Shown here piece by piece: positions 3,788 through 18,373 of a DNA stretch of 23,713 bases (the first letter of the stretch is position 1; each line of letters opens with the position of its first letter). The DNA lies in IMG/VR virus record IMGVR_UViG_3300010396_000101, positions 1 through 23,713 of that record; one strand, 5' to 3'. Under the pieces are notes generated by a model that ran no database searches, was not told the DNA's origin, and worked only from the letters and a program-made list of their open reading frames with translations. The translations under genes were made by a program, and so were the position numbers. This DNA is from a virus.

Positions 3788-4719
3788 CTGCCTATTACAA
3801 CGAATTCGACAAGAAAGCCGCCGCATGGTTGCGGGAGCTTATCAAGGGCGGAGAGATTCCAGATGGAGAGGTTGATGAGCGTTCAATTGTCGATGTTCGA
3901 CCAGGTGATCTATGAGGATTCACCCAGCACCACTTCTTTGCCGGAATTGGTGGTTGGCCCCTCGCACTTAGGCTCGCCGGCTGGCCTGACGATCGCAAAG
4001 TCTGGACTGGTTCATGCCCGTGCCAATCTTTCAGCGCGGCAGGCAAAGGACTTGGGTTTGCTGACGAGCGGCACCTTTGGCCTTTTTGGCATTACCTCAT
4101 CCAAGAGTTCCAGCCTACAACGATCCTTGGAGAGCAAGTTGATGCGGCAATTAGATTCGGCTGGCTCGACCTTGTTCAAACTGACTTGGAAGCCCTTGGT
4201 TACCTCTTCGGGTCTGCGGTCATTCCTGCTGCGGGCGTCGGCGCTCCGCACGGCAGACATAGAACTTGGTTCGTGGGGCACGCCAGCAGCTCGGGATTAC
4301 AAGGACGGCTCTCCATGCAAGGAGGTGCCGATAAATGGGCTATTGGGACGTCAGGTATGGATGGCGGCATGGTGCAGTCCGACAGCACAAGATGCGAATC
4401 GTGGAAGTGCGCCGCCACGTCCGCAGGACAAGGGAATTCCCCTGTCGCAGCAAGTGACATTTGCTCAGTGGTCCACGCCCAGGGCGAACAAGAGAGGATT
4501 TCCAGATTCGCACGGGAGTCAAGAAAGACCGCTGGATTCTGGAATGATGCCGACTGGATACCTTGTACAGATGACCGCTGGAGGCCCATTGAACCCGGAG
4601 TTTTCCCGCTGGCTAATGGGGTATCCGCAAGAATGGACAAGCTACGCGGATTTGGCAATGCCATCGTCCCGCAAGTCGCGCAAGTCTTCATTGAATCCGT
4701 AATGGAATGCATCGCATGA
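3784..4719 (+). pseudogene. C5-cytosine DNA methyltransferase interrupted by an in-frame TGA
   Basis: Read as one frame this gives a 311-residue C5-cytosine methyltransferase of the phage type. Motif I is FFAGIGGW (residues 51-58), and the catalytic loop is SCPCQSFSAAGKG with C80. GEQV (~116-119) replaces the usual ENV, and GFGNAIVPQVA lies near the C-terminus. Codon 44 (3913-3915) is TGA where arginine (CGA) would give a normal LRGFTQ sequence. The stop precedes motif I, and no ATG, GTG or TTG lies between it and motif I, so reinitiation cannot rescue the enzyme. Either it is dead and yields a 43-residue peptide, or the stop is read through, or it is a recent mutation or a sequencing error. 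The rest of the frame is undamaged, which argues for a recent event. A second frame is nested inside (3863-4702). Confidence 0.8.
3863..4702 (+). CDS. 279-aa protein nested in the +1 frame of the methyltransferase
   Basis: An uninterrupted +1 frame lies wholly inside the methyltransferase gene. ATG 3863 has GGAGAG seven bases upstream; ATG 3875 has a second GGAGAG at four bases and gives the N-terminus MSVQLSMFDQ, also plausible. The product is rich in Ser, Thr, Pro and Leu. Its features are TTSLPELVVGPSHLGSPAG, LLTSGTFGLFG, LESKLMRQLDSAGSTLFKLTW, repeated WxxPTAxDxN-like segments, and an end containing LNPEFSRWLMGYPQEW followed by SSRKSRKSS. I recall similar proteins in many phage genomes, often labelled DNA methyltransferase although they lack the catalytic PCQ. 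Here the frame is intact while the enzyme frame is broken. Function unknown; it could still be a non-functional shadow with unusually good composition. Confidence 0.6.
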   Translation: MERLMSVQLSMFDQVIYEDSPSTTSLPELVVGPSHLGSPAGLTIAKSGLVHARANLSARQAKDLGLLTSGTFGLFGITSSKSSSLQRSLESKLMRQLDSAGSTLFKLTWKPLVTSSGLRSFLLRASALRTADIELGSWGTPAARDYKDGSPCKEVPINGLLGRQVWMAAWCSPTAQDANRGSAPPRPQDKGIPLSQQVTFAQWSTPRANKRGFPDSHGSQERPLDSGMMPTGYLVQMTAGGPLNPEFSRWLMGYPQEWTSYADLAMPSSRKSRKSSLNP

Positions 4720-5401: not shown

Positions 5402-6096
5402 TTCATTACCCGCATTTCATCGCCGCTTTTAACAATGCGACGCGCCATTTGACGCGGCTAGAGCGCAGCGTGTACCGAGACATGATTGACCTTTATTATG
5501 AACTTGAGGCGCAATTACCACTTGATGTTGAGTGGCTTTGCAGAAAAATTATTGCTCGTTCCAACGAGGAATCAACGGCTGTTGAACAGGTGTTGAACGA
5601 GTTTTTTACAAAAACGCCGACAGGGTATTACAACGACCGTTGCGAAGAGGAAATAGAGAAGTATCGGAACACAAAAACACAAAAAGCCAAGGCGGGGAAG
5701 GCTTCGGCGGACAAAAAAGCAGCGAAAAAGCAACGAGCTGTCAACGGAGAGCCGACGAGTGTTGAGCATTCGTTAGATTCTTGTTTGACTCCCGTTATAA
5801 CGGACGGCAACGACGCTTCAACCAATCAGAATCAGAATCATTTAAAAGAAGCCGAACCCCCCGATTCTGGCGAATCGGCAGAAGACCCCCGCGCTTTGAT
5901 TTTTCGTCAGGGCGTAAAGATTTTGGTTGACCAGGGCTCCAAGCCAGAGCAGGCCCGATCATTCCTCGGCAAGTTCGCCAAGGACGAAGCCAAGCTTGCA
6001 TCGGTCATAGGCGAAATCATGGTTCGACCAAAGGCGGATGCCAAAGCGTATATCGCTGGCGCTATGACGCCGAAAAAACGCGAGGTCCAGATATGA
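5398..6096 (+). CDS. DUF1376-type (YdaU-like) replication protein, 232 aa
   Basis: The N-terminal ~90 residues match the DUF1376/YdaU pattern: HYPHFIAAFNNATRHLTRLERSVYRDMIDLYY, with the family's acidic and aromatic helices, then a QVLNEFF helix and the GYYNDRC segment. A Lys/Ala-rich helix (KAKAGKASADKKAAKKQ) and a long Asn/Glu linker follow, then a C-terminal helical domain (PRALIFRQGVKILVDQG...). Proteins of this family occupy the replication-initiator position in phages and probably recruit the helicase to the origin; this is inferred from position. It is immediately followed by, and overlaps, the primase-helicase gene. An origin inside this gene, as in lambda O, is possible, but I see no clear iterons. 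Confidence 0.82.
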   Translation: MIHYPHFIAAFNNATRHLTRLERSVYRDMIDLYYELEAQLPLDVEWLCRKIIARSNEESTAVEQVLNEFFTKTPTGYYNDRCEEEIEKYRNTKTQKAKAGKASADKKAAKKQRAVNGEPTSVEHSLDSCLTPVITDGNDASTNQNQNHLKEAEPPDSGESAEDPRALIFRQGVKILVDQGSKPEQARSFLGKFAKDEAKLASVIGEIMVRPKADAKAYIAGAMTPKKREVQI

Positions 6097-7811
6097 AAAC
6101 GTTCCGCGATTACGGCATCGATATCGGCACCAAAACCGGAAACGAGGTCAAGACCCAATGCCCGCAATGCAGCCAAACCCGCAAGAAGTCGAAATTGCCA
6201 TGCCTGAACGTGAACACGGACAAGGGCGTCTGGAATTGTTGGCATTGCGGCTGGGCTGGCTCACTCAAAGGCGGCGAATGGCAGCGACCGGAAATCGTCA
6301 AGGCGTACACCAAGCCTGCGTTTTCCAAGGCCATGCCGGCAGATACCATCATCACTTGGTTTGCCTCGCGCTGCATTCCCCAATCGATTTTGGAGAGGAA
6401 TGGGATTTCAAAAGGCGCGGCCTATTTTCCCCAAACCGAAGAGGAAATGCCTTGCATCATGTTCCCCTATTTTCGGGGCGATGATGTGGTCAACATCAAG
6501 TATCGGACCAAGGAAAAATATTTCCGCATGGCTGCTGGCGCAGAACGGGTTTTGTACGGCATCAACGATATCGCCGAGACATTGATTTGGGTCGAAGGCG
6601 AAATCGACAAGCTTTCGATTGAGGCGGCCGGATTCGTTTCCTGCGTCTCAGTTCCAGACGGCGCGCCGGCAGTCGAATCGAAAAGCTATTCGAACAAATT
6701 CGACTTCATGCAAGAAAAGGCTCTGGAACGGGTCAAAACGCACATCGTAGCCGTTGACAGTGATGCGCCCGGTGTCCGGCTGCAACAAGAGTTGGTGCGC
6801 CGCTTGGGGCGCGAAAAATGCCTTGTGGTGACCTGGCCCGATGACTGCAAGGATGCAAACGAGGTATTGCAAAAACATGGCGCCGAATTTCTTGCCGAAT
6901 GCCTCGCCAATGCCCAGCCTTTGCCAATCGAAGGTACGCACAAGGCCGGCGACGTGATGGAAGTCTTGCGCAACCAGTATTTGCACGGCAGCGAGCGCGG
7001 CATGTCCACAGGCTGGCATTCGCTCGAAGACCTATACCGCGTTATGCCCGGAGAGTGGACGCTTGTTACCGGCATTCCAGGGCACGGAAAATCGGAGTGG
7101 TTGGACGCCTTGACGATCAATCTTGCAATGCGTCTTGGTTGGACGTTCGCTGTTTTCTCGCCCGAGAATCAACCGCTTGAATACCACGTTCAAAAGATCG
7201 CCGAAAAGTACATCGGCAAGCCATTCAATCCCGGGCCTACCGAGCGTATGTCACTTGATGAATTCGGCGCGGCGGTAGAGTGGATAAACGAGCATTACAC
7301 CTTCATGCTGCCCGAGGCGCCTACGGTTGAAATGCTGCTGGACACGGCAACGGAAATTGTCCTTCGTCACGGCATACGCGGTCTTGTCATTGACCCATGG
7401 AACGAAATAAACCATGCGCGAGAGGCTTACATGACCGAGACAGATCACATTTCGCAAAAGCTCTCGAAGATTCGAGCATGGGCCAGAAACTACGGCGTGC
7501 ATGTCTGGGTCGTGGCGCACCCCACAAAGCTCATGAAGGACGTGGGCGGCAACTACCCTGTCCCAACGCCCTATGACGTGGCCGGCAGCGCCCATTGGAG
7601 AAACAAGGCGGATAACTGCATCACGATCTATCGCAACGTCAAAGAAGACGACGACAACGTAGAAATTCACGTCCAAAAGGTTCGCAAAAAGATGAACGGC
7701 AAAGTGGGCATGGCAACCCTTATCTATAACCGAGTTACTGGCCAATACCGCGACGATGTTCCAGGCTATATGCCTAAAGCGTTCGCCAAGAAACACGCAG
7801 AATTTGCATGA
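6093..7811 (+). CDS. bifunctional primase-helicase, T7 gp4/Twinkle type, 572 aa
   Basis: Domains in order: a zinc-binding domain with C23xxC26 and C49xxC52; a TOPRIM primase core with the catalytic glutamate in WVEGEID (~167-172) and DSD at 222-224; then a RecA-like DnaB-type helicase. In the helicase, Walker A is GIPGHGKS (327-334), Walker B LVIDPWNE (431-438), followed by VWVVAHPTK (471-479) and a C-terminal VQKVRKK segment. The enzyme would form a ring on the lagging strand, unwind DNA with nucleotide hydrolysis and make RNA primers. The length fits T7 gp4 (566 aa). No phage DNA polymerase is seen here, so it probably works with the host replisome or with a polymerase encoded elsewhere. 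ATGA overlaps join it to both neighbours. Confidence 0.95.
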   Translation: MKTFRDYGIDIGTKTGNEVKTQCPQCSQTRKKSKLPCLNVNTDKGVWNCWHCGWAGSLKGGEWQRPEIVKAYTKPAFSKAMPADTIITWFASRCIPQSILERNGISKGAAYFPQTEEEMPCIMFPYFRGDDVVNIKYRTKEKYFRMAAGAERVLYGINDIAETLIWVEGEIDKLSIEAAGFVSCVSVPDGAPAVESKSYSNKFDFMQEKALERVKTHIVAVDSDAPGVRLQQELVRRLGREKCLVVTWPDDCKDANEVLQKHGAEFLAECLANAQPLPIEGTHKAGDVMEVLRNQYLHGSERGMSTGWHSLEDLYRVMPGEWTLVTGIPGHGKSEWLDALTINLAMRLGWTFAVFSPENQPLEYHVQKIAEKYIGKPFNPGPTERMSLDEFGAAVEWINEHYTFMLPEAPTVEMLLDTATEIVLRHGIRGLVIDPWNEINHAREAYMTETDHISQKLSKIRAWARNYGVHVWVVAHPTKLMKDVGGNYPVPTPYDVAGSAHWRNKADNCITIYRNVKEDDDNVEIHVQKVRKKMNGKVGMATLIYNRVTGQYRDDVPGYMPKAFAKKHAEFA

Positions 7812-8002
7812 ATGAGCAAGAACACCGCTACCGTTGCGAAGTCCGGCATTGCATCAAGCTAGGAATTCGCAAGAAACTTGATCCATACCTAGAAATAGTG
7901 CAGAACAAGCGAGGCAAGGAAGCAGCAGATAGATTGAGGCAGGAGGCGCGGCGACAATATGGGAAGGGCAATCGCGGCGATTTTAATGTTTGGTTTGAAT
8001 AA
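7808..8002 (+). CDS. conserved small phage protein, 64 aa
   Basis: A short, highly charged, helical protein whose core (YLEIVQNKRGKEAADRLRQEARRQY, then GKGNRGDF) matches a pattern I remember from many phage early regions, listed as a DUF of about 65 residues. Two cysteines near the N-terminus (RCEVRHC) lack partners. It overlaps the primase-helicase stop by ATGA, so it is coupled to it. Function unknown. Confidence 0.7.
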   Translation: MNEQEHRYRCEVRHCIKLGIRKKLDPYLEIVQNKRGKEAADRLRQEARRQYGKGNRGDFNVWFE

Positions 8003-8012
8003 CGGAGGGAAT

Positions 8013-8195
8013 ATGTTTGCAGCTTTGGGTTTGTTTCTCACAGTCATCGGCTTTTTCGGAGTTCGCGGCGCATCTAGCAATGTGCATGCTGCATTTGATC
8101 ATCCATCACTGCCATATTGGGCATTGGCGTTTCTTGTGGGCCTAGTTTTGGTTTTGGTCTCGCTATGCATCATGGCTTGGAAATTTTTGCCGTGA
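8013..8195 (+). CDS. two-segment small membrane protein, 60 aa
   Basis: GGAGGG sits at good spacing before ATG 8013, which is preferred over an earlier in-frame start at 7959 inside the preceding gene. The product has a hydrophobic segment at ~2-18, a polar loop with His and Pro, and a second, strongly hydrophobic segment at ~35-56 (LAFLVGLVLVLVSLCIMAW). It should sit in the inner membrane. Two segments and small size would fit a holin, but early position argues against a lysis role; superinfection exclusion or membrane anchoring is equally possible. Confidence 0.65.
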   Translation: MFAALGLFLTVIGFFGVRGASSNVHAAFDHPSLPYWALAFLVGLVLVLVSLCIMAWKFLP

Positions 8196-8347
8196 ACTGG
8201 CTCTCCAATCCACGCGCATTCAATTACCTAATCATCGGACTATTTGTCTGCGCGGCTATTCGATGGGCATTGGCTAAAAATTGGTGGCAGGTGGCTTATT
8301 GGCTGGCGGCAGCGGTGATCAACATTGCGACGCTGCCGGCTGATTGA
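8192..8347 (+). CDS. two-segment small membrane protein, 51 aa, GTG start
   Basis: The GTG at 8192 overlaps the stop of the previous gene (GTGA) and gives a natural N-terminus (NWLSNPRAFNYL). Two hydrophobic segments follow, at ~11-27 and ~31-47, joined by a short basic and Trp-rich turn (AKNWW). Longer readings from 8117 would start inside the neighbour. With the preceding gene it forms a pair of small membrane proteins that may act together; no family is recognised. Confidence 0.6.
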   Translation: MNWLSNPRAFNYLIIGLFVCAAIRWALAKNWWQVAYWLAAAVINIATLPAD

Positions 8348-8371
8348 TTATGGTTTAACTAGGAGGATGAA

Positions 8372-8869
8372 ATGGGAAGAGAAATTCGCAAGGTTCCGGC
8401 GAACTGGGAGCACCCAAAAACAGATTGGTATGGCGATGGTCGATATCATCCCATGTACGATCAAACGTTCGAAGATGCATGCTTACGATGGAAAAAAGAA
8501 TTCATCGAATGGCCCGAAAGTGAGAGCTTCGCCAAGTGCGGTGGCGAATACTGGGAATACGCAGGGGACCCTCCAGACAGGGAATATTATCGAGCATATA
8601 AGGATGATGAGGCAACTTGGTATCAGGTCTACGAAACGGTATCCGAGGGTACGCCAGTAACGCCGCCATTCGCCACAAAAGAAGAGTTGATTCAGTACCT
8701 TGTCGAGAATGGAGATTTTTGGGACCAAGCCCGACGCAAAGAAAGGCCCTGGGAACGGGGGAATGAACCATGGCCTTTGGCTAATGCCATACGCTTTGTT
8801 ACTGGGGAGTCTTCTTTGCCGAGCATGATGGTATCCAATGGACAGGTTTTGATGCCGAAGGATATTTAA
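8372..8869 (+). CDS. conserved phage protein, Trp/Tyr-rich, 165 aa
   Basis: AGGAGG precedes the ATG at ideal spacing, one of the best ribosome binding sites in the window. The product starts MGREIRKVPANWEHP and is rich in Trp, Tyr, Glu and Asp. Its patterned stretches (EYWEYAGDPPDREYY, YQVYETVSEGTPVTPPFATKEELIQYLV, GDFWDQ, then PSMMVSNGQVLMPKDI) I recall from a protein shared by many phages of Gram-negative bacteria, without known function. It is acidic and lacks membrane segments or recognisable catalytic motifs. A small intergenic gap (8348-8371) sets it apart from the membrane pair. Confidence 0.78.
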   Translation: MGREIRKVPANWEHPKTDWYGDGRYHPMYDQTFEDACLRWKKEFIEWPESESFAKCGGEYWEYAGDPPDREYYRAYKDDEATWYQVYETVSEGTPVTPPFATKEELIQYLVENGDFWDQARRKERPWERGNEPWPLANAIRFVTGESSLPSMMVSNGQVLMPKDI

Positions 8870-9241: not shown

Positions 9242-9541
9242 ATGAATATCCCAATAATTCGCCTTGAAATCCAAGGTATGCAGCATACAGTCATGACCGC
9301 TTTAACCCAATATGCGGCAAAAATGGATGCTGATATACAGGCTGCCGTATCAGAAGCGATCACGGAAGAAAAGGTAATTGCCCTCATCAAGAAAACCGCA
9401 GACGAGGAAATAAATCGATGCATCGCCAACGAAATTCGGGAATTTTACAGCCGAGGCGCTGGGATGCAAGCCGTTCGACGCGCTGTAAATGCCACGCTCA
9501 ATGAGAAGGCAAAGTTCATGCAAGAAAATGGGTTGACTTAG
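9242..9541 (+). CDS. hypothetical helical protein, 99 aa
   Basis: A clear AGGAG lies before the ATG. Apart from a short N-terminal strand (IPIIRLEIQG) the product is predicted by eye to be almost all helix, with alternating charged and hydrophobic positions (AAVSEAITEEKVIALIKKTADEEINRCIA) suggesting a coiled coil or helical bundle. No family recognised. A stop directly abuts the next start (TAGATG). Confidence 0.6.
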   Translation: MNIPIIRLEIQGMQHTVMTALTQYAAKMDADIQAAVSEAITEEKVIALIKKTADEEINRCIANEIREFYSRGAGMQAVRRAVNATLNEKAKFMQENGLT

Positions 9542-9850
9542 ATGGAATGCGTAACCTTACCCGTGCCGATGCTAGACTGTGACGAATACCGCGGTCTGGC
9601 GTCGCGTGAAAAACAGTTCCTGATTGACCTCTATATCTGTTTCGGCGACTGCGAAACATTTACAATAGACGCTGAGAGGCCGCAGGAATACCGGCAACGT
9701 CATTGCGACGCTGCGACGATCTATCGCAAGCTGCGCGCCCTTATTTCCGCTGGGTTAGTATCCATTTCATACCAGCCCAACGGAAAGCAGGGGCGCCCTA
9801 CAACCGTCTACTCATTCAAATATCAGGTGCCCTATGTACTCAACGCGTGA
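9542..9850 (+). CDS. putative winged-helix protein, 102 aa
   Basis: The ATG follows the previous stop without a gap. The sequence reads as a winged helix: a first helix (SREKQFLIDLYI), then a helix pair around CDAATIYRKLRALISAGLVSI, then a wing (GRPTTVYSFKY). The pattern of a recognition helix followed by a beta hairpin with a GRP turn is typical of transcription-factor-like proteins that sense nothing and bind DNA. It directly precedes and overlaps the Q-like late regulator, so a role in controlling late expression is plausible but unproven. Confidence 0.6.
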   Translation: MECVTLPVPMLDCDEYRGLASREKQFLIDLYICFGDCETFTIDAERPQEYRQRHCDAATIYRKLRALISAGLVSISYQPNGKQGRPTTVYSFKYQVPYVLNA

Positions 9851-10250
9851 GATTGAAGGAATGCTTAGCAATGAACTTGACAACTGGTTGCGCTGGGGGC
9901 GAAGTCGAGATTGGATGCCAGCGTCTTATGGCTCGATCTTGGGGCAGCTATACCGAGCGCGCCTTGCGGAAGGAGTAAGCCCAGAGGATGACGTTCCGCC
10001 ACCTCCCCGAATCCAGGCCAACGAAGCGGAAGCAATGCGACTTGAGCGAATCATCGTTTCGCTTCCCAACCAGCAGAAGGCCGCATTCGTTCTGCATCAC
10101 CTATTCAAGGGCGCCTATTGCGGATGGGTAGTCAAGATTCGCACGCGGGAGGATGCGGCTCGGATTCTGGGGGTGGGCAAGACCAAATACCATCAGATCG
10201 TCAATTCTGCGCATTCGAGCGTTTGGCGCAAATACACAGAAAATAATTAG
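9834..10250 (+). CDS. Q-like late regulator with sigma-region-4-like C-terminus, 138 aa
   Basis: The protein begins YSTREIEGMLSNELDNWLRWGRS, the helical N-terminus expected of phage antitermination Q-type proteins. It continues to SLPNQQKAAFVLHHLFKG and ends with TREDAARILGVGKTKYHQIVNSAHSSVW. The latter two blocks have the shape of sigma-factor region 4 (a helix, then a helix-turn-helix). It is the last gene of the early operon, directly before the promoter-like dyad, the structured leader and the terminator at ~10830, exactly where lambda Q lies relative to its late promoter and terminator. It overlaps the previous gene by 17 bases, with an AGGTG before the ATG. The assignment rests on layout and fold; the exact family is uncertain. 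Confidence 0.65.
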   Translation: MYSTREIEGMLSNELDNWLRWGRSRDWMPASYGSILGQLYRARLAEGVSPEDDVPPPPRIQANEAEAMRLERIIVSLPNQQKAAFVLHHLFKGAYCGWVVKIRTREDAARILGVGKTKYHQIVNSAHSSVWRKYTENN

Positions 10251-10305
10251 TCGCATATTTTGCAAATCACAGGCAAATTTGTCCGAACGAATCGCCGATT
10301 TATGT

Positions 10306-10324
10306 ACTATAATTTTGCTATAGT
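10306..10324 (+). promoter_or_regulatory. candidate late promoter with -10-like dyad
   Basis: A consensus TATAAT lies at 10308-10313 and a second -10-like TATAGT at 10319-10324. Together they form a perfect dyad, ACTATA (10306-10311) and TATAGT (10319-10324), seven bases apart. The flanks are AT-rich, unlike the coding DNA around. I see no good -35 hexamer 16-18 bases upstream, which is common for activated phage promoters. The site begins the long noncoding leader that follows. Confidence 0.4.
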
Positions 10325-10339
10325 AGAGACAAGTAGCAA

Positions 10340-10840
10340 GAGAGAGTTCTGACGCCTTTTAAGCCCGTTGCGTAACGATCACCGTAGCGGCAGATGGGAA
10401 GAAGTCACGGTCCCCGCTTAAAAGGCGTGAGGGCTTTCCTTTGCAGCGTTATGACACATGCGGATTGCAATGGCAAAAGGGATACTCGGAACTGGACGCA
10501 GGGGCTATCCTAATAGGCAGGCATGCCAGCCAAAACCGAGAATCGTAGTCCGCAGTTGTGATAGCGAATGCGAAGACTGATTCGCAACAAGGAATGCGTG
10601 CTGGGACAAGGCTTAAACGCGCCGAACGAAGCGACCCACTAGACAGGTAATGCTGCTAGCCGCTTGGCCCAGAATGCCAGATTTCAGTACTGGCCGCTAT
10701 CAAATTCTGGCGTCATCCGGTAAAGCCAATAAAAGCCATTCCGGCGCGGCCCCGCCCTCTTAATATAGGGCCGTGAAGAATTCCAACCTTGCGCCCCGGG
10801 CGTGAGCCAAGCCCCGCTAAATGCGGGGTTTTTGTTTTGG
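10340..10840 (+). ncRNA. candidate structured leader RNA, about 490 nt, undescribed
   Basis: This 598-base gap (10251-10848) holds no convincing gene but many nested complementary arms. (1) A 13-bp perfect stem, 10352-10364 with 10416-10428, encloses hairpin CGTT/AACG (10366-10377) and stem ACCGT/ACGGT (10381-10385 with 10407-10411): a three-way junction. (2) CTCGG/CCGAG, 10485-10489 with 10536-10540, encloses GGCT/AGCC (10503 and 10528). (3) A long imperfect arm runs from 10548 to 10607: GTC/GAC, CGCA/TGCG, TTGT/ACAA, then GCGAAT/ATTCGC around a 10-base loop. (4) AAGCG/CGCTT, 10629-10633 with 10661-10665, encloses CTAG/CTAG. (5) CCAGAAT/ATTCTGG, 10669-10675 with 10704-10710, encloses GCCAG/CTGGC. 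(6) GCCCT/AGGGC, 10754-10771. The terminator at ~10812 closes it. No tRNA or Rfam class is recognised. Confidence 0.55.
10809..10838 (+). terminator. intrinsic terminator at the end of the leader
   Basis: A six-base GC stem, CCCCGC (10812-10817) and GCGGGG (10823-10828), with loop TAAAT, is extended by AAG against TTT and followed by TTTTTGTTTT. The U tract ends just before the GGAGG of the next gene. By the lambda model this would be the terminator that the late regulator must overcome. Confidence 0.85.
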
Positions 10841-10848
10841 AGGTCGCC

Positions 10849-10992
10849 ATGCAAACCGCTCCAAGATTCGCAATCCCGTTCACCAAGACAGATGAGCGCC
10901 GCGCCCTGGCCGAAATCCGAGAGCGCAGGAACGCGAGTCCTCGGCATGATCCGGCGTGGATGGCTGCTTTCTTCAAAAGATTGGCCCAATGA
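10849..10992 (+). CDS. 47-aa small protein, first after the leader terminator
   Basis: GGAGG lies directly before ATG 10849, between the terminator U tract and the start. The product is basic and helical (TDERRALAEIRERRNASP) with a hydrophobic end (AWMAAFFKRLAQ). No family recognised. The ribosome binding site placed right after the terminator means this gene is expressed only when the terminator is read through. Its stop overlaps the next gene by ATGA. Confidence 0.6.
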   Translation: MQTAPRFAIPFTKTDERRALAEIRERRNASPRHDPAWMAAFFKRLAQ

Positions 10993-11989: not shown

Positions 11990-12325
11990 ATGACAACTCC
12001 TGAAATTGGTGACGATGTTTGGCTGTGGGAAAGCGCCACGCCAGAAGCCGCAAAGATCGTTGCGGAAGCCTACCCGGCCGGCTATCACGTTGTTGCGTGG
12101 GCATTTGATGGAAACACCATCTTTCGCGCTGCACTGCCCCTGATCGACGCCACAAGCGCCGTTCCTTATGAAGCATTTATCACCATGAAGGGCGTGCGCC
12201 CAAACTGGAATACCGCCACGGCAGTTGAGGCTGCAACGCCTCCAACCATCGAACCAGCACAGCCAACGAACGAAACACCTGAAGCTGCACCGGAAGCCAC
12301 GCCAACCACAGAGGCCCATCAATGA
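11990..12325 (+). CDS. hypothetical protein, 111 aa, paralogue of the previous gene
   Basis: ATG 11990 is used; the frame extends upstream to 11885 inside the neighbour, which has no ribosome binding site. The N-terminal ~72 residues parallel the 84-aa protein before it (IGDDV...YHVVAWAFDG...EAFITMKGVRP). The last ~40 are a low-complexity Ala/Thr/Pro/Glu tail (TPPTIEPAQPTNETPEAAPEA) that should be disordered. It overlaps the next gene by ATGA. Position before the terminase genes suggests a virion or assembly role, but this is unproven. Confidence 0.65.
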   Translation: MTTPEIGDDVWLWESATPEAAKIVAEAYPAGYHVVAWAFDGNTIFRAALPLIDATSAVPYEAFITMKGVRPNWNTATAVEAATPPTIEPAQPTNETPEAAPEATPTTEAHQ

Positions 12326-12720
12326 CCGCATCCAGTCTCCAACAAGCCAGCCAGGGCGCGCAGCCTTCTGATCCATCGCAAGCCAATGGCATGAGCGGCG
12401 GAGCCGACATGGGAGAATCGCAAGGTGGCATTGACCCAAGCCAAGGCTACCAAATCTGCATCAACGTCGGCGGCGATAACACCATTTCCGTTTCGGTCGA
12501 GCCTGGTTCTGGCGACTCAAGCGGCGCATCTGGCGCAATGGGTGGTTCTGGTGGGTCCGATGCCGGCGCAAGTGGCGGAACAGATCAAGACTCGCAACAA
12601 GTGCCCAATATTCACGCCGCCATGCAAGTCGTTATGGACATCTACAAGCACGCCGGCCAGATGAACGAAAGCGGCGCCGAGCAAGACGCCATGACCCAAG
12701 CCTATGGGAGTGGTTCTTGA
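12322..12720 (+). CDS. low-complexity Gly/Ser/Gln-rich protein, 132 aa
   Basis: Much of the protein is Ser, Gly, Gln and Asp (for example SSGASGAMGGSGGSDAGASGG). One short beta segment (YQICINVGGDNTISVSVEP) and one C-terminal helix (IHAAMQVVMDIYKHAG) are the only likely folded parts. Composition suggests a linker-like or assembly-assisting protein. Starts with ATGA overlap and ends with a TTGA overlap, so it is in the operon chain. No family recognised. Confidence 0.6.
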   Translation: MTASSLQQASQGAQPSDPSQANGMSGGADMGESQGGIDPSQGYQICINVGGDNTISVSVEPGSGDSSGASGAMGGSGGSDAGASGGTDQDSQQVPNIHAAMQVVMDIYKHAGQMNESGAEQDAMTQAYGSGS

Positions 12721-13582: not shown

Positions 13583-13993
13583 GTGCTGACACCAAAGCAA
13601 GAAGCGTTCTGCATAGAGGTACTGAAGCATGGCAACGCGAGTGAAGCATATCGCAATGCCTACGCATCAGCGGCGGCGAAGAGTAACGACAACTCGATCA
13701 ACCGCCGCGCACATGAATTGATGCACAACGGCAAGATCATAGCTAGACTCCAGGAACTGCGGGCGCCTGCCATCAAAAATGCTCGCATATCGCTGGAATC
13801 GCACTTAGAGGACCTTCTTAGGCTGCGCACCAAGGCAGAGGCCAGTGAGAAATATCAAGCCGCCATACAGGCTGAGGTGGCGCGTGGCAAGGCATCGGGT
13901 TTGTACATTGAAAAGATCGAGCATTCTGGTTCGATTGAGCTAAAGACCTTCATCGAATCGCTTTCCGGGTCTGAATTGCCCATCAAGAAGTAA
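13583..13993 (+). CDS. terminase small subunit, 136 aa
   Basis: The N-terminus LTPKQEAFCIEVLKHGNASEAYRNAY is the standard start of the terminase small-subunit family with a helix-turn-helix (Terminase_2 type). A recognition-helix-like segment (SINRRAHELMHNGKIIARLQEL) and a C-terminal oligomerisation region follow. The protein recognises the packaging site and presents DNA to the large subunit. The start is GTG at 13583 with AAAGG eight bases before. The large subunit follows 59 bases later, the usual order. Length is normal for the family. Confidence 0.9.
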   Translation: MLTPKQEAFCIEVLKHGNASEAYRNAYASAAAKSNDNSINRRAHELMHNGKIIARLQELRAPAIKNARISLESHLEDLLRLRTKAEASEKYQAAIQAEVARGKASGLYIEKIEHSGSIELKTFIESLSGSELPIKK

Positions 13994-14052: not shown

Positions 14053-15609
14053 ATGGAATTTTCGGCTGAATTGGAGAAGATTCGGCCGTATTTGTCCGAC
14101 CCTAACTGGCGAATCGCGAATCTCTACAAGATCATCGTAAAGGGCGACGACAACGAAGACGGCATGGTGGTTCAGTTCAAGCCGAACCGCGCACAGCGTC
14201 GATTTATTGACCGACTGCACCACCGCAACATCATCCTGAAGGCCCGCCAGCTAGGCTTCACCACGCTGATATGCATCGTGTGGTTAGACCATGCATTGTT
14301 CAACTCGAACGTGCGGTGCGGGATCGTGGCGCAGGACAGGGATTCGGCGGCGGTGATCTTTCGTGACAAAGTGAAGTTTGCATACGAAAACCTGCCGGCA
14401 TTCATCAAGGCGGCAATGCCACTGAAGGCCGATAACGCAAGCGAACTGCACTTCGGCCACAACAACAGCAGCATTCGAGTCGCAACATCGATGCGCTCTG
14501 GAACGATTCACCGACTCCACATTTCGGAGTTCGGCAAGATTTGCGCCAAGTACCCGGAGAAGGCTAAGGAGGTCATGACCGGCTCAATCCCAGCGGTTCC
14601 TCTAAATGGCGTGATCGTCATCGAAAGCACGGCGGAAGGCGCAGAGGGCAGGTTCCACGACCTGACACAACGAGCAATGGAAATGGAAGATCAAGGCAAA
14701 GAGCTAACCGAGCGCGATTACCGCTTCCATTTCTTCCCGTGGTGGCAGGAACCGCGCTATCGCATGAGTCCTGAGCATGTTGTCATCACTTCCAAGGACA
14801 ACGAATACTTTGACTCCGTTGAATCGACCATGCGCACCGCGTTGGACATGGAGCAGCGCGCCTGGTACGTGGCAACGCGGGACTCCGACTTCGTTGGCAA
14901 TGAAGACAACATGTTGCAGGAATACCCGAGTACGCCAGACGAAGCATTTGCAGTATCGAACGAAGGTTGCTACTACACATTGCAACTTTCGCAGGCGCGA
15001 AAGCAGGGCAGAATCCTGCGCATTCCGCTGATCAATACTCCCGTCAATACGTTCTGGGACATTGGCAATAGCGACGGCAGCGCAATCTGGTTCCATCAGC
15101 AGGTTGGCATGGAAGATCGATTCGTCGGTTACTACGAGGCGCACGGAGAAGACTTGAGCCATTACATGTTGCACTTGCAGCAGCGCGGCTACATCTTCAA
15201 CAAGCACTTCCTGCCACACGATGCCGACCACATTAGGCTTGGCGCGAAGAATCGAAGCATCAAGCAGATGCTTACAGAAATGGGCCTGCAAAACATCGTC
15301 ATCGTTCCTCGCATTGAGGCAATCAACGCTGGCATACAACAGGTTCGCCAAGTCTTCCCAAGTTGCTACTTCGATGAGGTCGGATGCAAGGACGGCCTGT
15401 CGCGGCTGACTGGATACAAAAAACGTTGGAACGAAGCGCAAGGCCGTTGGAGCGATGAGCCGTTGCATGATAGTAATTCGGAAGGCGCAGACGCATTCAG
15501 GCAGTTTGCCCAGGCAAAGATGGGGGGGTTGATCACTCCTGTTGCGTCGCGGCCACGCACATTTATGAACACGCCGAAGTTTTCTGGCGGCACTGGAATA
15601 TTAGGATAA
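14053..15609 (+). CDS. terminase large subunit, 518 aa
   Basis: ATPase: a Walker-A-like LKARQLGFTT at 62-71, Walker B around RLHISEF (154-160) and a coupling motif IESTAEG (~190-196). The nuclease has FWDIGNSDG with D336, the HDADH segment with D390 and D392, and a C-terminal SEGADAF with D480: the three acidic sites expected for metal binding. The motor drives DNA into the procapsid and cuts the concatemer. The ATG lacks a good Shine-Dalgarno, but the N-terminus (DPNWRIANLYKI) is typical. The 59-base gap before it (13994-14052) has no clear terminator; a TTGTCA at 14010 is not matched by a convincing -10 box. Its size is in the usual range. Confidence 0.95.
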   Translation: MEFSAELEKIRPYLSDPNWRIANLYKIIVKGDDNEDGMVVQFKPNRAQRRFIDRLHHRNIILKARQLGFTTLICIVWLDHALFNSNVRCGIVAQDRDSAAVIFRDKVKFAYENLPAFIKAAMPLKADNASELHFGHNNSSIRVATSMRSGTIHRLHISEFGKICAKYPEKAKEVMTGSIPAVPLNGVIVIESTAEGAEGRFHDLTQRAMEMEDQGKELTERDYRFHFFPWWQEPRYRMSPEHVVITSKDNEYFDSVESTMRTALDMEQRAWYVATRDSDFVGNEDNMLQEYPSTPDEAFAVSNEGCYYTLQLSQARKQGRILRIPLINTPVNTFWDIGNSDGSAIWFHQQVGMEDRFVGYYEAHGEDLSHYMLHLQQRGYIFNKHFLPHDADHIRLGAKNRSIKQMLTEMGLQNIVIVPRIEAINAGIQQVRQVFPSCYFDEVGCKDGLSRLTGYKKRWNEAQGRWSDEPLHDSNSEGADAFRQFAQAKMGGLITPVASRPRTFMNTPKFSGGTGILG

Positions 15610-17174: not shown

Positions 17175-17504
17175 ATGTGGCCCAGCAAATCAGGTTTTGG
17201 TAACCAGCAATCGTTTAGCGGCGTGACATCGGGCCAAACACTTGTTGTGCCCAGCACGAACCAAGACACGCTGGTTTCCATTTCTGCCGCCGGAACACTT
17301 GCCTCATTGACTTTGACGCTGCCGCCAGATGCGGCAACCGCAATTGGTCAGCAAATCCGCATCTACACTTCTGTGGCGGTGACTGCATTTACTGTCAATG
17401 GAGAAACCAACATCTACGGCGCCCCGACTTCGTTAAACGCGCAAGACAACTTCGGGTTTCAGAAGGTTGCCCCAAACACTTTTACATTGATAGGCATATC
17501 TTGA
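17175..17504 (+). CDS. putative virion-associated protein, 109 aa
   Basis: Starts one base after the previous stop. The product is Thr/Ser-rich and nearly all beta ([46 protein letters not shown]), in the style of short repeats found in phage fibre and decoration proteins. No family recognised. It ends in a TTGA overlap with the collagen-like gene, suggesting a shared assembly. Confidence 0.6.
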
Positions 17505-18373
17505 AAAGACTTCTTGTATGGCTCATTACGGCGGCACTTTATGTGCCGTTCTATGTTTATGCACAATCGCAACCCGGCGACTTCCTGATCACCCAGCGCA
17601 ATGCGGCGAATACTGGCAACAACGTCTTCAATACGCATCTGCCCAGTGGCGGTGGCATCTTTGCCATTTCCATCTATGATCCGGTTACAGGATTGCCGGG
17701 ATTCGCCACGCTTGGAACTGGATGCACCGAAACATCGAATGTGCTTACTTGCATTGGTGCTGTAGGCCCACAAGGTCCGACCGGCCCCCAAGGACCGCAG
17801 GGCGCACAAGGGCCGGCTGGTCCACAAGGAGCAGTAGGAGCTACAGGCGCGACTGGCTCAACAGGTGCAACGGGACCAGCAGGCGCTACTGGGGCGCAGG
17901 GTCCGCAAGGCGCTACTGGATTAACGGGCGCACAAGGCCCGCAAGGTTTGACAGGCGCCACGGGCGCAACTGGCCCGCAGGGACCGGCAGGTACGCCAGC
18001 AGCGCAGTTCAATTTCGGCACTCCAAATAGCCGTACGCTCGCGCTTTCAACCGCCTACCAAGCCACAGATTCAACGAAGGCCGCGATTGCCAGCATCAGC
18101 CCGCAATGTACCGCATCAATTAGCCTCACTGGTGGGTCAACCTGCACGATTCAGGCGCGTCTTGGAGGCAGTACGTTGTCATGCACAACGGGAACCGTTG
18201 TGGCGACATGGACGAATGGCAATACTGGCACCCTTACCGTTGGGTTGGCGCTTAATCAGATCATTGGCGCGCCAGGAAGTATCAACGTCCCCATTGGCGG
18301 CTATTTCATCCTCTGCCAAACCAGCGGTACGGGCGCCACCATTACAACCGCAGTTGACCAAAGCGCCGGCTAA
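17501..18373 (+). CDS. secreted collagen-like protein, 290 aa, TTG start
   Basis: Residues 1-21 form a signal peptide: basic KR, hydrophobic [12 protein letters not shown], then VYA before a probable cleavage. Residues 86-166 are 27 uninterrupted Gly-X-Y triplets with Pro, Gln, Ala and Thr, without a break or a lysine. The C-terminal part has paired cysteines ([17 protein letters not shown]...LC), fitting disulfide formation in the periplasm. A trimeric collagen-like stalk with globular ends is expected. The start is TTG overlapping the previous stop. A phage virion protein normally has no signal peptide, so export to the periplasm or cell surface is likely, unless the N-terminal segment is a membrane anchor. 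Confidence 0.75.
17756..17998 (+). repeat. collagen-type Gly-X-Y coding repeat, 27 triplets
   Basis: An in-frame run of 27 Gly-X-Y codon triplets inside the secreted protein gene, built from units such as GAT, GPQ, GAQ and GLT. Codons vary between units (GGC, GGT, GGA, GGG), so the array is old or recoded rather than a fresh expansion. Such arrays change length easily by recombination. Confidence 0.9.

Follow-up and report, generated by a model that had tools for sequence, protein, structure and literature searches.

A probable long terminated leader RNA, predicted to fold strongly at its 5' end, in a putative lambda-type late switch of an uncultured phage

Results

Position of the putative leader between early and late genes

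In an uncultured phage of lambda-like organisation, the segment that separates a candidate late regulator gene from the late genes is probably the pR'-tR' interval of a late switch of the lambda type whose structured leader is unusually long, a reading to which we assign a probability of roughly 0.6. The window analysed is the whole IMG/VR record IMGVR_UViG_3300010396_000101 (23,713 bases), and its features are collected in Table 1. The candidate regulator gene, a tandem -10 sequence, a leader whose first two domains fold better than chance on the + strand, and a terminator follow one another in this order. The initial annotation had placed a structured RNA downstream of a Q-like gene and ahead of the late genes, beginning at a -10-like dyad and ending in a strong terminator, and had proposed a leader among its possible roles; both the placing and the leader reading fit the evidence.

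Table 1. Features of the window around the putative late leader
Feature	Position	Strand	Remarks
Primase/helicase	6093-7811	+	PHROG 239
102-aa helix-turn-helix-like protein	9542-9850	+	
138-aa late-regulator candidate	9834-10250	+	all-alpha, weak sigma-70-region-4-like helix-turn-helix
Direct repeat GCAAAT-N5-GCAAAT	10262-10278	+	exact, 11-bp spacing; upstream of the putative late promoter, not at the Q21 QBE position
Dyad TACTATA-ATTTTGC-TATAGTA	10305-10325	+	7-bp arms, N7; only perfect 7-bp dyad in the region
Predicted RNA domain 1	10336-10445	+	27-bp helix closing a three-way junction; z -5.9, 0/300 shuffles as good
Predicted RNA domain 2	10446-10570	+	long imperfect arm; z -3.6
6-bp hairpin GCGAAT/ATTCGC	10569-10586	+	10568-10585 alone: z -3.1, p 0.02
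Leader 3' part	10587-10806	+	predicted helices, e.g. 10665-10680/10690-10715; at chance level
Intrinsic terminator, tR'-like	10809-10837	+	AAGCCCCGC-TAAAT-GCGGGGTTT, then T-run; strong terminator at 10809-10831
First late ORF, 47 aa	10850-10993	+	Shine-Dalgarno (SD) GGAGGT at 10840; immediately 3' of the terminator
Terminase small subunit TerS	13583-13993	+	PHROG 51/PHROG 2 assignments for TerS/TerL; late operon marker
Terminase large subunit TerL	14053-15609	+	PHROG 51/PHROG 2 assignments for TerS/TerL; late operon marker

The gene order on the + strand is lambda-like and runs from small early genes over the primase/helicase, further small genes, the 102-aa and the 138-aa protein to the gap, followed by small ORFs, TerS and TerL and the genes for the portal/head-tail and major head proteins, with the regulator candidate (9834) lying between the replication genes (primase-helicase, 6093) and TerS/TerL/portal. 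No PHROG match was obtained for the 47-aa first late ORF. TerL is nearest to the Burkholderia Lessievirus / Pseudomonas F116 group, its best relatives being an IMG/VR contig (72%) and Burkholderia phage JC1 (63%), and judging from relatives the hosts appear to be Burkholderiales or related bacteria. Elsewhere in the window, ORFs 3863-4702 and 4186-4719 overlap, and each is similar to a part of one and the same region in a related locus (L148); the stretch 3863-4719 appears to be a C5 DNA methyltransferase gene that a frameshift has split, or else one with an overlapping layout. An ORF at 17501-18373, between the terminase and portal genes, carries long collagen-like Gly-X-Y repeats.

The 138-aa protein upstream of the gap

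The claim that the RNA follows a Q-like gene held for the placing upstream of the promoter and for a hint of sigma-70 region 4 (Pfam PF08281, E 0.004; NCBIfam sigma70-ECF, E 0.0035; both below the cut-off). It did not hold for the family, as neither the 138-aa protein nor any other part of the window matched PF06530 (Phage_antitermQ), and no other Q family was among the Pfam hits. The AF2 model of the protein is poor (pLDDT 57), and its better matches in Foldseek were largely sigma-factor structures, often of region 4, at non-significant values of E > 0.6. The protein can be called Q21-like by layout and not by family test, and its Q-likeness is weak. No homologue of it was found in IMG/VR, GTDB contigs, phages and 399 genomes; among these searches, the scans with peptide patterns detect fairly close relatives only.

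Predicted promoter region and terminator

The -10-like dyad from which the RNA had been said to start was located as TACTATA-N7-TATAGTA. It holds TATAAT (10308-10313) and the extended -10 TGCTATAGT (10316-10324); TATAGT at 10319 is preceded by TG and lies 11 bp past TATAAT. Nowhere else on the + strand of the window do two -10 hexamers stand in such a tandem. Related loci contain 22 such pairs per 1.58 Mb, and a chance occurrence in a 600-bp gap is roughly a 1% event. By its sequence pattern, the dyad is predicted to combine the -10 of a late promoter with a -10-like sigma-pause element in the initially transcribed region, and transcription would start near 10320, or at 10331 if the second hexamer serves as the -10. 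No -35 element was found. The Q binding element (QBE), which is expected between -35 and -10 and consists of direct repeats in phage 21, was not recognised either: in 10260-10325 no 6 bp recur directly at a spacing of 7-9 bp, even with one mismatch allowed. Q types other than that of phage 21 use other sites, and the GCAAAT repeat may be a regulator site, on weak grounds.

The strong terminator expected at the end of the leader was likewise located, at 10809-10831 (segment 10806-10835: z -3.3). It lies between the promoter and the first late gene, with the SD adjoining.

Coding content and known RNA families

Within the gap (10251-10849) there is no convincing gene, in accordance with the earlier statement that it shows no good coding frame. 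The longest + strand ORF wholly inside has 40 aa, and the short frames tested had no match in PHROGs. A coding region was rejected, as the ORFs in six frames are short and without family matches, and neither tRNA nor tmRNA was detected. Rfam 15, which includes group I/II introns, GOLLD, ROOL and known ribozymes, gave 0 matches at gathering score in the window; with a lax filter the best hit was a plant miRNA model on the - strand (E 1.6). The RNA can therefore still be called undescribed with respect to Rfam 15 and the sequence collections searched.

Folding of the putative leader

Minimum free energy folding with a dinucleotide-shuffled control led to -200.1 kcal/mol for 10330-10845 (z -3.71), and 0 of 100 shuffles were as good; when the terminator was left out (10320-10806) z was -4.75, so that the leader beats all shuffles at z about -3.7 to -4.7. 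As a control, 18 segments of matching length, taken from genes of the window, ranged from z +1.95 to -2.87, and the reverse (- strand) of the leader gave z -1.4, within the range of the shuffles. Because the fold survives removal of the terminator, exceeds the gene segments, is at z -1.4 on the - strand and contains G-U pairs favouring the + strand, the signal is RNA-like and specific for the + strand. The fold itself is a prediction from a single sequence, and its conservation is unproven.

The excess structure is concentrated in domain 1, domain 2 and the terminator, i.e. the first ~240 nt and the terminator alone are more structured than chance. Domain 1 is the strongest-folding window and is promoter-proximal. 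Its predicted helix (10336-10364/10416-10444) is an inverted repeat of 27 bp with single mismatches and a mean pair probability of 0.98, and encloses junction hairpins at 10365-10390 and 10396-10414. A perfect 13-bp stem closing a three-way junction, noticed before at 10352-10428, does exist and turned out to be the inner portion of this helix (10352-10364/10416-10428). The energy of the domain is -53.0 kcal/mol on the + strand versus -38.5 on the - strand, as several pairs are G-U and become mismatches on the other strand. No T-run follows domain 1, which therefore is not a second intrinsic terminator. A loop-loop contact (ACCGT with ACGGT) is not claimed, most of these bases being already in hairpin stems. 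For domain 2, helices are predicted at 10447-10456/10557-10566, 10459-10468/10545-10554 and 10481-10489/10536-10544, with mean pair probabilities of 0.87-0.98.

Downstream of domain 2 the picture drawn in the initial annotation was too strong. A uniformly elaborate RNA of ~490 nt is not what was observed, as the 3' half (10571-10806, z -1.5) is at chance level, and with z 0.0 for 10586-10740 'at least six independent stem systems' could not be confirmed. The 60-base arm of four helices proposed for 10548-10607 gave z -1.47 alone; the bases at 10545-10554 and 10557-10566 find their partners within domain 2 instead, which leaves the 6-bp hairpin as the sole helix standing. A pairing of 10656-10678 with 10799-10822 (-23.7 kcal/mol) competes with the terminator and is absent from the minimum-energy fold; that it might act as an antiterminator is an idea only.

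Search for relatives

Searches by blastn, tblastn, back-translated patterns and a single-sequence covariance model revealed no relative of the leader RNA or the 138-aa protein in phages, plasmids, IMG/VR, GTDB contigs, fetched loci and the 399 genomes, which represent one order, that of a betaproteobacterial MAG with a related primase. With blastn against phages and plasmids, only ~30 nt of the leader, at the terminator, were matched. Related viral loci, picked through TerL, through the primase and through the protein encoded at 8372-8869, carried neither the leader RNA nor the 138-aa regulator candidate. The covariance model of domain 1 found no homologue in 113 sources. One match in the 399 genomes (E 3.6e-6) was attributed to chance, lying inside a 389-aa ORF in another context and with many broken pairs. 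In IMG/VR, the domain 1 stem pattern occurred 0 times and the tandem -10 pattern in 6 contigs; in those read, a layout of Q-like gene plus structured leader was not apparent.

Folded gaps in other phages

Several strongly folded peaks in the leaders compared coincide with terminators. The leader of lambda had z -3.65 with tR' and -0.44 without, and the peak of a sliding scan lay on tR'. Well-folded stretches were found in the corresponding place of HK97 and of two relatives (L109 and L012), and a folded late leader is therefore not unheard of. In the primase relative L109, a small ORF is followed at 12100-12420 by a GCTATAGTA site, a stretch of strong folding (z -4.2) and a terminator, analogous as a late leader and without sequence similarity; L012 has two terminators ahead of TerS. 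Other folded gaps were noted in passing. On a 160,705-base contig (L155), a 477-nt gap between two small ORFs (9393-9869) has z -8.3 and no Rfam or tRNA match, and a Pistol ribozyme lies ~340 nt beyond it (10211-10274). Locus L022 has a 638-nt gap (7897-8535) directly after the large terminase gene, with several terminator-like hairpins and z down to -6.8.

Discussion

Host RNA polymerase would start at the promoter within 10305-10325 and probably pause at the -10-like repeat. Without the phage regulator, ~510 nt would be transcribed up to the terminator, and the product would be a terminated leader RNA, presumably stable, with the 27-bp domain capping its 5' end and the terminator its 3' end. 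The 138-aa protein, whose gene closes the early operon, would load at the promoter and, as a putative antiterminator, allow transcription to pass the terminator and enter the late genes, which begin at 10850. Gene order and the identity of the late genes fit this late switch. The sigma-region-4-like hints of the 138-aa protein are in line with the Q of phage 21, which has a sigma-R4-like fold; this Q, like Q-type late promoters, depends on a -10-like element within the initially transcribed region (PMC6606751). Further support comes from the only + strand tandem -10 sitting exactly between regulator gene and leader, from the strong terminator adjoining the SD of the first late ORF, and from the same layout in P22 and YA3, with partial parallels in L012 and L109. 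The fold is strand-specific, and its 5' part is not owed to the terminator (z -4.75 without it, against -0.4 in lambda). The missing -35 and phage-21-like QBE repeat count against the late switch, as do the lack of a PF06530 match and of homologues and the poor model for the 138-aa protein, and a leader of ~510 nt that far exceeds those compared.

One rival reading holds that domains 1 and 2 fold by chance or as a relict within spacer DNA, e.g. as the remnant of an inserted element, so that promoter and terminator alone would matter. No homologue was found from which covariation could be read, half of the stretch folds no better than shuffled sequence, and 10 of 4101 evaluated 110-nt windows from gaps of related phage loci reach z < -5, several of them likely terminators; we nevertheless regard this reading as unlikely, given the strand specificity with its G-U pairs, two adjoining domains that each beat their shuffles, the lack of a T-run after domain 1 and, for a relict mobile repeat, 0 copies of the stem in IMG/VR. 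Similarly doubtful is that the 138-aa protein would be an activator of the -35-less promoter, for example at the GCAAAT repeat, instead of an antiterminator, with a terminator that is leaky or shields from upstream read-through. In that case a strong terminator right before the first late ORF would block the late genes and the tandem -10 would be left without explanation, whereas the extended -10 without a -35 would be accounted for, and so would the two identical 6-bp units that lie upstream, spaced by one turn of the helix. Region-4-like folds occur in transcription activators as well.

Two further readings concern the RNA itself. The terminated leader might be a trans-acting small RNA that is made in the lysogen and pairs with mRNAs of the host or the phage. 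The precedent is StxS, which arises during lysogeny when the pR'-tR' transcript of Shiga-toxin phages is cut (PMC7873438). This would be compatible with the leader reading; RNAs of this kind typically combine a stable 5' domain with a terminator, and the strong + strand fold is devoid of coding frames. We consider it improbable all the same, as no homologue was found, the T-run is short for Hfq, and the one long complementarity to the Q-like mRNA of this phage (10206-10217 with 10565-10576) is at an estimated chance level. Very unlikely is a cis-acting antiterminator of the HK022 put type, in which domain 1 would fold on leaving the polymerase, stay bound and suppress the terminator, either alone or together with the 138-aa protein. 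Domain 1 does lie directly downstream of a promoter and -10-like pause, as does putL, where sigma pausing is thought to aid folding (PMC9378689), and it has two hairpins within its junction and a very strong fold. Put sites, in contrast, are RNAs of ~70 nt with two adjacent stem-loops and act in early operons; here a 27-bp helix surrounds a three-way junction of 110 nt, and blastn revealed no kin of putL/putR and no similarity to any phage record beyond the terminator fragment.

On the late-switch reading, the folded 5' end would most likely stabilise the terminated transcript, and any activity beyond being a leader is something that we infer. That the leader is an extra-long, elaborate variant of the terminated leader RNA known from lambda-type phages is plausible. 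It is unlikely, though conceivable, that domains 1 and 2 form a new RNA element controlling late expression, i.e. an RNA close to the promoter that acts on polymerase during elongation in concert with a new Q-like protein family, or a dedicated noncoding RNA of the lysogen with its own targets, and not a passive leader. Lambda-type late leaders have usually been regarded as by-products, and StxS shows that regulators can arise from them. Here the part of the leader outside the terminator is far more structured than in lambda and lies beside a putative regulator of no known family, which would make it a concrete case for an RNA role in late antitermination or lysogen physiology.

Among the systems known, the arrangement is closest in its parts to pR'-6S-tR'/Q of lambda, with a regulator gene, a promoter plus a second -10-like element just downstream, a terminated untranslated leader and the late genes. 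Lambda-type 6S leaders are ~194 nt long, the figure of the initial annotation, against ~510 nt here, 58 in P22 and 224 in YA3. The strongly folded 5' domain also sets the locus apart, the leader of lambda having z -0.4 once its terminator is left out; sequence similarity to lambda is lacking, and QBE and -35 were not recognised. In P22 the same layout is annotated (pR' start 37887, tR' 37917-37945), and in Pseudomonas phage YA3 it has been inferred, with tR' 224 nt downstream and a 139-aa Q (PMC7326022). With the PF06530 system of phage 21, also annotated in YA3, the locus shares a small all-helical sigma-R4-like protein ending the early operon and a -10-like pause element; it differs in the missing PF06530 match and direct-repeat QBE and in a leader more than twice as long as that of YA3. 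Like StxS, the RNA is predicted to be made between promoter and terminator, behind a gene of the Q type. With putL/putR of HK022 it has in common a -10-like pause sequence and the position of a folded RNA straight after a phage promoter, and it is set apart from them by a closed three-way junction and a second arm of 120 nt, both placed before the late genes.
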